Origin: Plantibacter sp. VKM Ac-2880 | Lineage (GTDB): Bacteria; Actinomycetota; Actinomycetes; Actinomycetales; Microbacteriaceae | DNA: 64,000 nucleotides | Direction: 5' to 3' | NCBI RefSeq assembly: GCF_015351235.1 | Contig: NZ_JADKSJ010000002.1 | Span: 744,001-808,000, forward strand | Part shown: positions 38,540-45,556 of the stretch, piece by piece | Layout: the number at the start of each line of letters is the position of its first letter | How positions within the stretch are numbered: the stretch's first letter is position 1 | Notes under the pieces: generated by a model | What the model was told of the DNA's origin: nothing | Seen by the model: only the letters and a program-made list of their open reading frames with translations | The model's database searches: none | Translations under genes and position numbers: made by a program

Positions 38540-38968
38540 ATGACCGCCGACGACCCGACCATCCGCCTCGCCGACGACGCCCGATGCCCGTGCCTCTCCG
38601 GCGAGACCTACGGCGCATGCTGCGGACGCCTGCACCGCGGTGAGGCTGCGGCCGCCACGGCGGAGGCGCTCATGCGGTCACGCTTCTCGGCGTTCGCGGT
38701 CGGCGACGCCGGCTACCTCCTCCGCACGTGGCACCCGAGCACGCTACCGGCTGCGCTCGACCTCGACGACTCGCTCCGCTGGTACCGACTCGACATCCTC
38801 GCCACGGCACGCGGCGGTCTGCTCGACACCGAGGGCATGGTCGAGTTCGTCGCACACCACAAGATCCCGGGCGTCCGCGGCTCCGCCGGGAGCCAGCACG
38901 AGCGGAGCCGGTTCTCCAAGGACACCGGCGTCTGGACCTACGTGGACGGCGTCGACCCCGGAGTGTGA
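38540..38968 (+). CDS. YchJ-like SEC-C zinc protein
   Basis: A 142-residue protein of the YchJ/UPF0225 family. The N-terminal CPCLSGETYGACCGRLH is a SEC-C-type zinc knuckle (C-x-C...CC/H). The body AEALMRSRFSAFAVGDAGYLLRTWHPST, then WYRLDILATARGG and VEFVAHHK, forms an NTF2-like domain that keeps the family pattern. The C-terminal FSKDTGVWTYVDG is also typical. Function is unknown. The ATG at 38540 matches the short N-terminus of relatives. The palindromic element R5 begins 40 bp after its stop. Confidence 0.92.
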   Translation: MTADDPTIRLADDARCPCLSGETYGACCGRLHRGEAAAATAEALMRSRFSAFAVGDAGYLLRTWHPSTLPAALDLDDSLRWYRLDILATARGGLLDTEGMVEFVAHHKIPGVRGSAGSQHERSRFSKDTGVWTYVDGVDPGV

Positions 38969-40763: not shown

Positions 40764-42650
40764 ATGCCAGACGACGCCCGAGCCCCGCTGCCGTTCCAGG
40801 TCGACCTCCGCGGAGTCGTCGACCTGCTGAGTCGGCACATCTACTCCGGCCCGCGCGTCTACCTGCGCGAACTCCTGCAGAACGGTCGCGACGCGGTCGC
40901 CGCCCGCCGCTCCGAGGACCCGGCGGCCCCGTCCGGCGCCCTCCTCATCACCCCCCACGTGGCAGGCTCGCCCGACGGCGCCGATTCCCCCTTCCGCTTC
41001 CAGGACAACGGGATCGGGCTCACCCGCGACGAAGCGGCCGAACTCCTGGCGACGGTCGGGCGCAGCTCGAAACGCGGCGACCTCGACGAGCTCCAGCGCG
41101 GCGACTACCTCGGCCGGTTCGGCATCGGACTCCTCAGCTGCTTCATGGTCGCCGACACCATCACCGTCCGCAGCCGCTCGGCCCGCGGCGGACCGGCCAT
41201 CGAGTGGATCGGCCACACCGACGGCACGTTCACCATCCGGGAACTCGACGAGCAGACGACGGCAGCACGACCGATCGGCTCGGAGGTGCTGCTGGAGCCG
41301 CGGCTCGACGGCCCGCTGCACGACGGCGGGCTCCTCGGGCACGGGGCGGTCCTCGGCCTGGCGACGAGCTTCGGGCGGTACCTCGACCTCGACGTCGACG
41401 TGGTCGACCCGACGACGGCGACGCCCACGCGCGTGAACGTCGAGCCGGTGTTCCGCACCCCGGCGACCACCCCACGGGAGGAGCTGCTCGCATTCGGCGA
41501 GGAGCTCCTCGGCACGCGCCCCTTCGACGCCGTCGAGATCGTGGTGCCCGGCACCGACACCCGCGGCACCGCCTTCGTCCTGCCCTCGCCACCTCCGCCG
41601 GGCGCGCGGCAGGCGAGCCGGGTCTACCTGGGCGGCATGCTGCTCAGCGAGCAGGTCGACGACCTCCTGCCGGACTGGGCGTTCTTCGTGCGCTGCATCG
41701 TCGACACCACCGGTCTCCGCCCGACGGCCTCGCGAGAGCAACTCGTCCAGGACGACGCCCTGGAGTTCACCCGTGAGGCCATCGGTTCCGCGCTCCGACG
41801 CTGGATCCTCGACCTCGCCCGCCAGCGCCCGCACCGCCTGCAGGAGTTCATCGGCGTCCATCAGCTGGGGATCAAGGCCATCGCCGCACACGACGTCGAC
41901 CTCGCCACCGCGGTGGTCCGATGGCTGCCGATCGAGACCTCCGCCGGCACCATGACCATCGACGAGCACCTCTCGCAGGCCGGGGTCATCCGGTACACGG
42001 CCACGCGGGACGAGTTCCGGCAGATCGCCTCGGTCGTCGACCCGGCCTCACCGATCGTCAACGGTGGGTACGTCTACGACCAGGAGATCCTCGAGCGCCT
42101 GCCGTCGTTGATCGAGGGCGTCCGCGTCGAACGGGTGACGGTCGCCGACGAGCTCGACAACCTCGAGCCACCCCACCTCGACGACCTCGCCGCGACGACC
42201 GCGCTGGAAGACCGCGCCAGCCGCGTGCTCGACGAGGTCGAGTGCCGGGTGTCCGTCAGGCGGTACCGCCCCGACGACCTCGCGGCCCTGTACGTCGCCG
42301 ACCCCTCCGTGCTCCGCCGCCTCGAACGCCACCGTGCGGCCGCCGTCGCCCCCGGCATCTGGTCCCAGGTCGTCGGCGCGGTCGACTCCTTCCTCGCCGA
42401 GGCGAAACCGGACGACGGCGACGCGACGACCGCGGCACGCCTCTGCCTGAACTGGAACGCGGCACTCGTGCGACGGCTGGCCACGCTCGACGACGACCTC
42501 GTGTTCGAGCGCAGCATCCAACTCCTCTACGTGCAAGCGCTCCTCGCCGGCCACCGCCCCCTGGAGGCCCGCGACCGCCGCATGCTCGACGCAGCCATGA
42601 CCGACCTGATCGGCCTCAGTGTCGGTCTCGACGACAAGGAACTCCGATGA
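40764..42650 (+). CDS. Hsp90-family chaperone (actinobacterial HtpG-like)
   Basis: A 628-residue GHKL ATPase of the Hsp90 family. The N domain keeps the ATP site: VYLRELLQNGRDAV (catalytic Glu36, Asn40), FQDNGIGLT (Asp81) and the lid GRFGIGLLSCFMVAD (~117-131). The middle domain keeps RVYLGGMLLSEQVDDLLPDWAFFVRC and TASREQLVQDD, with the Arg that contacts ATP in Hsp90. The C-terminal third diverges from HtpG. The ATG at 40764 is followed by a canonical N-domain start. Its stop overlaps the next ATG (ATGA), so it is translationally coupled to a large TPR-like protein, its probable partner. Confidence 0.9.
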   Translation: MPDDARAPLPFQVDLRGVVDLLSRHIYSGPRVYLRELLQNGRDAVAARRSEDPAAPSGALLITPHVAGSPDGADSPFRFQDNGIGLTRDEAAELLATVGRSSKRGDLDELQRGDYLGRFGIGLLSCFMVADTITVRSRSARGGPAIEWIGHTDGTFTIRELDEQTTAARPIGSEVLLEPRLDGPLHDGGLLGHGAVLGLATSFGRYLDLDVDVVDPTTATPTRVNVEPVFRTPATTPREELLAFGEELLGTRPFDAVEIVVPGTDTRGTAFVLPSPPPPGARQASRVYLGGMLLSEQVDDLLPDWAFFVRCIVDTTGLRPTASREQLVQDDALEFTREAIGSALRRWILDLARQRPHRLQEFIGVHQLGIKAIAAHDVDLATAVVRWLPIETSAGTMTIDEHLSQAGVIRYTATRDEFRQIASVVDPASPIVNGGYVYDQEILERLPSLIEGVRVERVTVADELDNLEPPHLDDLAATTALEDRASRVLDEVECRVSVRRYRPDDLAALYVADPSVLRRLERHRAAAVAPGIWSQVVGAVDSFLAEAKPDDGDATTAARLCLNWNAALVRRLATLDDDLVFERSIQLLYVQALLAGHRPLEARDRRMLDAAMTDLIGLSVGLDDKELR

Positions 42651-45556
42651 ACGACGCAGCAAGCACCCCCGTCTCCACGGACCTCGACCCCGACGCGAGT
42701 GTCGACGACCTCCTCGCGGAGGCCGACACCCTGCCGTGCGGCCCAGCCGAGCGCGCGCTCCTCGACGAGGCGCTGCGACGCGCCGACGCGGCCGGCGACG
42801 AGGAGGCCGCGTACGCGACCCGGATGCGGCTGACCCAGTCCGCCCACATGACGGGCGACACCGACACCATGTTCAGCTCCTTCGGGTGGTGCGTCGGCAA
42901 GCACGACGCCGACCCGCAGCGGTTCCCGATCACGGTCGACGGCTGCGACCTCCTCTTCCAGTACAAGTGGATGGCCGGACGACTGTCGACGAACCCGACC
43001 TTCTCGCTCGCGCAGATCGAGGCGATGCACCAGGACATGCAGGCCAGGTACGCGGCGGCCGGCGCCACGATGAGCGGCGTCGTGCAGTCGCAGTTCCACA
43101 TCGCGACGGTCACCGGACGGCTCGACGAGGCGGCGGCGCTCCTCGAACGCCGGTCGAGCATCGAGGACGACCGGTACAGCCACTGCGAAGCCTGCGTCCG
43201 CAACGAGGACGCTTGGTTCCACCAGCTCCGCGGGCACGACGACGAGGCGATCCGGATCTACGACGAGATGTTCGAGAACCGGATGAGCTGCGGTGAGGAG
43301 CCGGAGACGAGCGAGGCCCAGGCGCTGCTCCCCTACCTGCGCGCCGGCCGACTCGACGACGCCAAGGCGGCGCACCAGCGCAGCTACCGCGTGGCGCGTT
43401 CGAACGCGGACGGTTTCGGCATCATCGCCGACCACCTGATCTTCTGCGCGGTCACCGGCAACGAGGCGCGTGGCCTCGCGATGCTCGAGCGTCACCTCCC
43501 GACGCTCGTCAACGACCCCATCAACCTGTCCGGGCACACCGACGGCCTCACCGCGGTCGGCGTGCTCCTCGACGCGGTCGCCCGCGCCGGCCACGGTGGG
43601 CTGCCGGTGCGCGGCGCCGACGCCCCCGAGCTCGCGCGCTACCTCGGGGTGACGCCGGCCGGCGGCACCGACCATGCGCCCCATGGCGACGCGGACTGGA
43701 CCGTGGCCGCGGTCGCCGAGCGGGCGTGGGCCTCGGCCGAACGGCTCGCGCGGGCGTTCGACGAACGGAACGGCAACGACTTCCGCACGACACGGCTCGA
43801 GGCGGCACGCGCGCTCGCGACGGAGCATTGGGACCTCCCGCTCTCCGTCGAGGGCTTCGCCGCACCCGTCGTCGAACCGGAGCCGGCCGCGACCGCCGCC
43901 GAGTGGCGTGAGCGCACCTCGGCCCTCCTGCAGAGCGCCGACACGACGGGGGCGATCGTCGCGGCCGAACAGGGCCTCGCCCTGCTCGCCGACGAGTCGA
44001 GCCCCGACGAGAACCTCCGCGCCGGACTCTTCGGCGTGATCACGCAGGCGGCCGTCATCCAGGGCGACGAGGAACGCGCGGGTGCCGCGTGGACCGACCG
44101 CGGCGCCGCCCTCCGTGCCGCCGGCCGCAGCGCCGTCGCCGAGCTCGAGGGCCGCTTCGGTCCGGCCCTCCTCGGCACGGCCACGGAGGACCGACTCACC
44201 GCGCTGCTCGCGGAACTCGACGAGGCCCGCCTCGTCCCGGTCGATCCCGACCGACTCATCCACACCCTGGTCATCACCGCACGGCACGCCTTCGAGCTCG
44301 CCGGCCAGCAGACCGAGCAGGAGGCGGCGGAGCGCTTCATGGGGATCGCCGACCGACTCGCCGGCGAGGCCGTCCTCGCGGCGGCCGTCGACGATCCCGG
44401 GGAGGCCGGTCCCCCGGCGCGGCTGCTGCACGCCCACCTCTTCGCGGTGACCGGACGGATCCAGGAGGCCGAGGAACTCCTCGACCCGCTCCTCGAGCCC
44501 GAGCAGCGGGCGTCCGTCCGGCTCCCGGCGCTGACCCTCCGCACCCGCATGCTCGGGGGCGCCGGGGCGTTCGCCGAAGGGGTCGCCCTCGCCGACGAGC
44601 TCGTCGGCCTCCAGACGACGCTCGGCAACCGACTCGGCATCATCCAGGCCTGCACCCTCTCGGCCGCGCTCCTCAGCGACGCCGACCGCGACCGCGAGGC
44701 GGCGGCCAGGATGCGGCTCGCGATCACGCATGCACGGCGGGCCGAGGTCGAGGACGTCGATTCGCTCACCCTGCAGTTGGCCCGGTATCTCCAGTTCGCC
44801 GGCGATGCCGCCACGGCCCTCGAACACTACGACGAGGTCTACCAGGCGCGGCGCGAGCAGGCGGCCCCCGGTGAGCTCGCCGACCTCCTCGCGAACATGG
44901 GTGAGGCCGCGCGCATGATCGGCGAACACGGCATGGCGTACGGGGTGTGGCGTGCTGCGCTCGACGACGCCGCCGCGGTCGGCAACGACCAGGTCGTCAT
45001 CCGCACGGGGTTCGGTCTGAGCACCCTGCTCCTCCAGTTCGAGGACGACGACGCGGTCGAGGTCGTCGACCAGGCCCTCGCGGCAGCGCGTCGTCTGGAG
45101 GATCCGCAGCTGCTCGTCCAGGCGCTGCAGCGGGCGGCGAGCGCACGCGCGGCGTTCGGTGACGACACCGGGCTCCCGTTGTTCGAGGAGGCCCGCGAGC
45201 TCGCGACCGCGCACGAGGCGGCCTGGCTCGTCGCGGACATCACCGACTCGGAAGCCAGGGCCCTCGGCGCGCTCGGACGGACCGACGACGCGACGGCGAC
45301 CGCCCGTCGCGCGGCGGCGGGATTCGTGGCGGCCGGCGACGAGAACGGTGCCGCGGTCGCCGAGGTGTTCGCCGCACGATCGCGGGTGGCGGTCGACGAC
45401 CACCTCGGCGCGGTCGAGCTGTTCCGTTCCGCTCGCGGACGGCTGCCGGCAGGTTCGCCGGACTGGACGACGGTCACGGCCGAACTCGCCGACGCACACG
45501 AGCGGTTGGAGCAGCACACCGACGCCGCGCTCCTGCGCGCCGAGATCGAGGAGTGA
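42647..45556 (+). CDS. Large TPR-like helical-repeat protein coupled to Hsp90
   Basis: A 969-residue soluble protein built almost wholly of helix-turn-helix repeats. Examples with TPR spacing are TGRLDEAAALLERRSSIED, LRGHDDEAIRIYDEMFEN, TGRIQEAEELLDPLLEPEQ, FAGDAATALEHYDEVYQARR and LGRTDDATATARRAAAGFVAAGD. The N-terminal part has a Cys/His cluster (YSHCEACVRN) and conserved aromatic residues. It has no enzymatic motif or membrane segment. The ATGA overlap with the Hsp90-family gene makes it a likely co-chaperone or client adaptor, as TPR proteins are for eukaryotic Hsp90; that parallel is inference. Length and repeats are well supported, the exact function is not. Confidence 0.85.
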   Translation: MNDAASTPVSTDLDPDASVDDLLAEADTLPCGPAERALLDEALRRADAAGDEEAAYATRMRLTQSAHMTGDTDTMFSSFGWCVGKHDADPQRFPITVDGCDLLFQYKWMAGRLSTNPTFSLAQIEAMHQDMQARYAAAGATMSGVVQSQFHIATVTGRLDEAAALLERRSSIEDDRYSHCEACVRNEDAWFHQLRGHDDEAIRIYDEMFENRMSCGEEPETSEAQALLPYLRAGRLDDAKAAHQRSYRVARSNADGFGIIADHLIFCAVTGNEARGLAMLERHLPTLVNDPINLSGHTDGLTAVGVLLDAVARAGHGGLPVRGADAPELARYLGVTPAGGTDHAPHGDADWTVAAVAERAWASAERLARAFDERNGNDFRTTRLEAARALATEHWDLPLSVEGFAAPVVEPEPAATAAEWRERTSALLQSADTTGAIVAAEQGLALLADESSPDENLRAGLFGVITQAAVIQGDEERAGAAWTDRGAALRAAGRSAVAELEGRFGPALLGTATEDRLTALLAELDEARLVPVDPDRLIHTLVITARHAFELAGQQTEQEAAERFMGIADRLAGEAVLAAAVDDPGEAGPPARLLHAHLFAVTGRIQEAEELLDPLLEPEQRASVRLPALTLRTRMLGGAGAFAEGVALADELVGLQTTLGNRLGIIQACTLSAALLSDADRDREAAARMRLAITHARRAEVEDVDSLTLQLARYLQFAGDAATALEHYDEVYQARREQAAPGELADLLANMGEAARMIGEHGMAYGVWRAALDDAAAVGNDQVVIRTGFGLSTLLLQFEDDDAVEVVDQALAAARRLEDPQLLVQALQRAASARAAFGDDTGLPLFEEARELATAHEAAWLVADITDSEARALGALGRTDDATATARRAAAGFVAAGDENGAAVAEVFAARSRVAVDDHLGAVELFRSARGRLPAGSPDWTTVTAELADAHERLEQHTDAALLRAEIEE

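Follow-up and report, generated by a model that had tools for sequence, protein, structure and literature searches.

We propose that the two genes at positions 40764-45556 of a 64,000-nucleotide window from Plantibacter sp. VKM Ac-2880 (the window being the whole stretch of DNA analysed) probably encode a single ATP-driven chaperone module, in which a divergent Hsp90 is served by a TPR protein acting as its dedicated co-chaperone or client adaptor. The evidence used is gene pairing, co-occurrence, co-duplication, the conservation of ATPase and Cys residues, and predicted folds. Both the Hsp90 family itself, as a catalogue entry, and the partnership of Hsp90 with TPR proteins in eukaryotes are already known, while no description of the pair was found in the open-access literature. 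If our reading is true, the pairing of Hsp90 with TPR proteins arose in bacteria too; and, as the pair is a near-obligate two-gene unit that supplies the only Hsp90 found in some genomes and occurs in tractable Streptomyces and Listeria, the question of a bacterial co-chaperone becomes directly testable.

The reading frames and their overlap are as the initial annotation described them. The first gene (40764-42650, forward strand) encodes 628 amino acids and is a full-length member of NCBIfam family NF010683 / PRK14083 ("HSP90 family protein"), matched over residues 10-622 with 684.6 bits against a curated cut-off of 455. With the canonical HtpG model NF003555 the same product scores 126.6 bits, below the cut-off of 371, and the match ends at residue 403. 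The residues of the N-terminal ATP site had been reported as intact, and they are: the catalytic Glu36, Asn40 and Asp81 and the lid glycines 117, 120 and 122 are identical in all family members that cover the site (108-111 of 113 aligned Hsp90s), and the middle-domain catalytic Arg324 is present in 112 of the 113. The C-terminal third was rightly called divergent, its sequence being unlike HtpG, yet it is kept inside the NF010683 family (Asn563, Tyr589, Pro599), and it is still predicted to be Hsp90, because an AlphaFold2 model of the protein (pLDDT 82) aligns end to end with solved Hsp90s (TM ~0.6, rmsd 8-10 A). In the model, the N-M-C domain architecture of Hsp90 chaperones is present as predicted. 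The protein is therefore like canonical HtpG (hsp90A) in its ATP site, catalytic arginine and overall predicted fold, but is set apart from it by the profile scores and by genetic setting, since none of the three canonical HtpG loci examined has a TPR partner. Searches of the Plantibacter genome with the Pfam Hsp90 model and NF010683 found this gene as the sole Hsp90, and no canonical HtpG. A 772-codon open frame elsewhere in the genome contains a further, distantly related Hsp90-type ATPase domain (33 bits; G000:C1:1147024-1147377; L009). No fusion of Hsp90 and TPR genes was seen; the long Hsp90 frames are open GC-rich frames.

The second gene (42647-45556, forward strand; 969 amino acids) shares the four bases ATGA with the 3' end of the first, indicating translational coupling. 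None of the family libraries used contains its product, which falls short of the Pfam gathering score for TPR repeats (TPR_12, 18.5 against 30.1) and has no sequence match among solved structures. A structural model built on an alignment of 30 relatives (pLDDT 89) is helical throughout and matches TPR proteins such as LGN locally (TMt 0.7-0.8), so that the partner is, as predicted from the model, an all-helical TPR superhelix of helix-turn-helix repeats. Across the family its length ranges from 320 to 1030 amino acids, and it has two parts of different character. The N-terminal domain (approximately residues 1-400; 42647-43846, forward strand) has a mean pairwise identity of 40%, against 26% for the remaining C-terminal superhelix (approximately residues 401-969; 43847-45553, forward strand), and is the better conserved half in more than 99% of partner sequence pairs.

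The N-terminal domain also contains the Cys/His cluster to which the initial annotation drew attention. Among 116 aligned partner proteins, a set that includes four pair-less relatives, 115 carry the Cys180-x2-Cys183 motif (43184-43195), Cys215 (43289-43291) and His243 (43373-43375), all on the forward strand. Judged from this conservation, the cluster is real and not a product of chance, and a putative metal site is its natural reading. The three cysteines are found in Bacillota and in the pair-less relatives as well; His243 is invariant in Actinomycetes and not in Bacillota, its position being Phe or Gly in the Listeria and Paenibacillus partners, and we dropped it as a universal metal ligand for that reason.

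That similar pairs may exist in other actinobacteria had been suggested, and a survey of gene neighbourhoods finds them widely. In 36 of 297 Actinomycetes genomes an Hsp90 passes the cut-off, and the partner accompanies it in 35 (Fisher p ~1e-44); no genome among the 297 has a strong partner (>450 bits) without the Hsp90, and weaker partner relatives occur in three other genomes. Profiles recover some partners that single-sequence tblastn misses. The partner is the next gene downstream (+1) at 112 of 113 Hsp90 loci, across which no third conserved neighbour was found outside Microbacteriaceae, and the pair is found in all seven same-genus genomes searched, that of strain VKM Ac-2880 included. 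Scanning named genomes for the partner only gave 80 loci, every one with an Hsp90, which adjoins the partner in 76; in the other four, extra genes lie between, mostly partner paralogues. When 396 genomes sampled from the whole phylum were searched, the partner turned up only in Actinomycetes. The pair is thus dedicated and near-obligate in this class, as claimed, and is not the ordinary setting of HtpG.

Duplications provide a further line of evidence. Five Streptomyces-type genomes contain two paralogous pairs, and since the A and B copies form the same split in the Hsp90 tree as in the partner tree, the pair was duplicated as a unit. Elsewhere, two or three tandem partner paralogues lie 3' of one Hsp90 (L155, L162 and L170 in Kineosporia, together with L108 and L176), with examples in Kineosporia, Klugiella and one Micrococcales MAG. 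A mirror-tree comparison of Hsp90 and partner gave r = 0.87, a figure that still contains species history and was set aside as proof for that reason.

The pair extends beyond Actinomycetota. In a plasmid collection that supplied two Listeria records and one from Paenibacillus, NF010683 members were found in Listeria monocytogenes (799 bits, in a gene adjoining fri) and Paenibacillus cellulosilyticus (715 bits); one Listeria record, at 2.9 Mb nearly a whole chromosome, has a single Hsp90 place. Directly downstream are genes for proteins of 320-353 amino acids that match only the N-terminal part of the partner (166-219 bits) and keep Cys180, Cys183, Cys215 and a Phe-Asp-x-Arg-Asn motif; Listeria has two copies in tandem and Paenibacillus one, with an ATGA overlap. 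Since these partners consist of the N-terminal domain only, that domain is the core of the partner, and the long superhelix would be either an actinobacterial extension or a part lost in Bacillota. The Listeria locus (L196:4980-8765), in which the HSP90 family gene is followed by two tandem genes annotated as "hypothetical", corresponds, judged by its setting, to lmo0942-lmo0940; lmo0941 has been flagged for selection signatures (PMC6901971).

Previous work on bacterial Hsp90 has touched this family without its companion. Chen et al. (2006; PMC1525184) divided HTPG into Groups A, B and C, of which Group C comprises Actinobacteria and Firmicutes, and reported that S. coelicolor has two HTPG copies of different groups; operons are not mentioned. 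NF010683 has the same Actinobacteria/Firmicutes span as Group C, and its Hsp90s are putatively that group. The name of NF010683 / PRK14083, to which the Plantibacter, Listeria and Paenibacillus proteins all belong, supplies neither a partner nor a function. Press et al. (2013; PMC3708813) left hsp90B and hsp90C out of consideration, and the same paper states that bacteria have no known obligate co-chaperone; another (PMC8082187) states that they lack Hop, Aha1 and p23 orthologues. As the genes stay together across many Actinomycetes, Listeria and Paenibacillus, the partner is a good candidate for a dedicated bacterial Hsp90 helper.

The resemblance to eukaryotic Hsp90 and its TPR co-chaperones (Hop, FKBP51/52, PP5), on which the initial annotation remarked, is sound in so far as an Hsp90 is coupled with a TPR protein, and by analogy only. 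It does not reach the mode of contact. The MEEVD tail is present at none of 113 aligned C-termini, and the partner, a solenoid of 320-1030 amino acids with a Cys site, is far longer than the eukaryotic three-repeat clamp. The suggestion that the Hsp90 C-terminus lies in a TPR groove is consequently without support, given also that the most conserved region of the partner is its N-terminal, Cys-containing domain; any docking must differ from the eukaryotic tail-in-clamp mode, because no member has MEEVD.

In the mechanism that we favour, the NF010683-class Hsp90 would be a clamp-like ATPase and the co-translated TPR protein its dedicated co-chaperone or client adaptor. Docking on Hsp90 would fall to the N-terminal domain of the partner, whose Cys site probably binds a stabilising metal, and presenting clients or giving an adaptor surface to the C-terminal superhelix, which is lineage-specific. 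Binding, metal, client delivery and a role in protein quality control are what we infer here. For the module speak co-occurrence, +1 adjacency, paired duplication, the Bacillota pairs, one exceptional Hsp90 (L059) that is coupled to a TPR protein of its own, a heat-shock operator beside a Clp ATPase gene in Salinibacterium, and the finding of no canonical HtpG in the Plantibacter genome; against it are the missing MEEVD, the fact that the operator is convincing in one genus and may serve the Clp gene alone, and four partner relatives that stand without Hsp90. A more ambitious version seems to us quite possible, if a little short of probable: that the partners form the first co-chaperone family dedicated to a bacterial Hsp90. 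On this view the partner is a TPR-type protein stabilised by metal, and its obligate tie to a single class of Hsp90 would predate the Actinomycetota/Bacillota split, or an early transfer between the two; it would dock by its N-terminal domain independently of MEEVD, and the long actinobacterial superhelix would have been added to it later, widening the choice of clients.

The pairing itself does not discriminate between a co-chaperone and a client, because the genes would be arranged alike if the TPR protein were a dedicated client. The TPR protein might be a sensor or signalling scaffold that needs Hsp90 for folding or activation, making the pair a switch and not a general chaperone machine. 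A private client fits one Hsp90 serving one co-translated protein, tandem partners behind one Hsp90 fit several clients, and the coupling of some partner relatives to a YbjN protein implies that they can work without Hsp90. However, TPR arrays are usually adaptors, and the Salinibacterium operator with its Clp neighbour suggests a general role in protein quality control, although this operator is possibly the Clp gene's own; we consider a client relationship unlikely, while giving it appreciable weight.

Regulation and neighbourhood bear on this point. HAIR is the operator of the heat-shock regulator HspR. Five Salinibacterium loci carry a HAIR operator (L121:6035-6055; also L123, L124, L128 and L154) in the space that separates the Hsp90-TPR pair from a divergent Clp ATPase gene. 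These sites deviate from the 14 fixed bases at one position at most, and 2 Mb of loci yielded a single further site with two or fewer mismatches; three-mismatch sites were ignored, their frequency being at chance level. The operator may serve the Clp gene, the Hsp90 pair or both. Upstream of the Plantibacter pair the HAIR operator is absent, and CIRCE and CtsR sites show no excess over shuffled sequence and do not occur in Listeria or Paenibacillus. The genes secE and nusG adjoin the pair in some 40 Microbacteriaceae loci, mostly from Microbacterium, and outside this family the flanking genes are mostly metabolic. Together with the operator, which is known from one genus, these neighbours point to housekeeping protein quality control in preference to defence. 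A gene for a small SEC-C / YchJ-type protein lies upstream of the Plantibacter pair, at 38540-38968.

An anti-phage or conflict function, suggested by some divergent relatives only, appears to us very improbable. The distribution is indeed patchy (36 of 297 genomes), the L059 Hsp90 lies close to genes for a Fic protein and for a type I restriction-like R subunit, and a Pseudanabaena Hsp90 is found near TIR and TPR genes. Yet neither protein of the pair is like a defence family beyond weak similarity in the N-domain ATPase, among the 107 flanking proteins outside Microbacteriaceae, every PADLOC family matches one at most, the neighbours are secE and nusG in the Microbacteriaceae loci mentioned and mostly metabolic genes elsewhere, and no relative of the pair was found in viral contigs. 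Mere co-expression of two proteins that never touch is equally hard to credit: coupling by itself proves co-expression only, but the adjacency holds across two phyla and through duplications, without a third conserved gene.

The exceptions to the pairing are informative. The L059 Hsp90 scores 480 bits, near the cut-off, and lacks a homologous partner, being coupled instead to a different TPR protein of 297 amino acids; the stretch L059:4989-14414 covers this arrangement together with the Fic and R-subunit genes mentioned above. On a Xanthomonas vasicola plasmid (L204:5947-10170), an Hsp90-like ATP-binding protein is directly followed by a 774-residue TPR protein with a C-x2-C-x2-C motif. These two cases indicate that the combination of an Hsp90-like and a TPR protein recurs with diverged partners. 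On a Pseudanabaena plasmid (L199:5932-10795), an 877-residue Hsp90-type protein has a weak TIR-like match at its C-terminus, below the cut-off, and its neighbours are a similar small protein, a TIR gene and a TPR gene; this is possibly an Hsp90-based conflict system. Of the four weaker partner relatives that stand without Hsp90, two (L187:6532-8609 and L188:6469-8519) are Cys-domain proteins coupled to a YbjN protein, from which it follows that the Cys-domain protein can have another companion. In Actinomyces oris (L202:4319-9036), a partner-like Cys-domain protein likewise stands without Hsp90 and has two YbjN-like genes just upstream.
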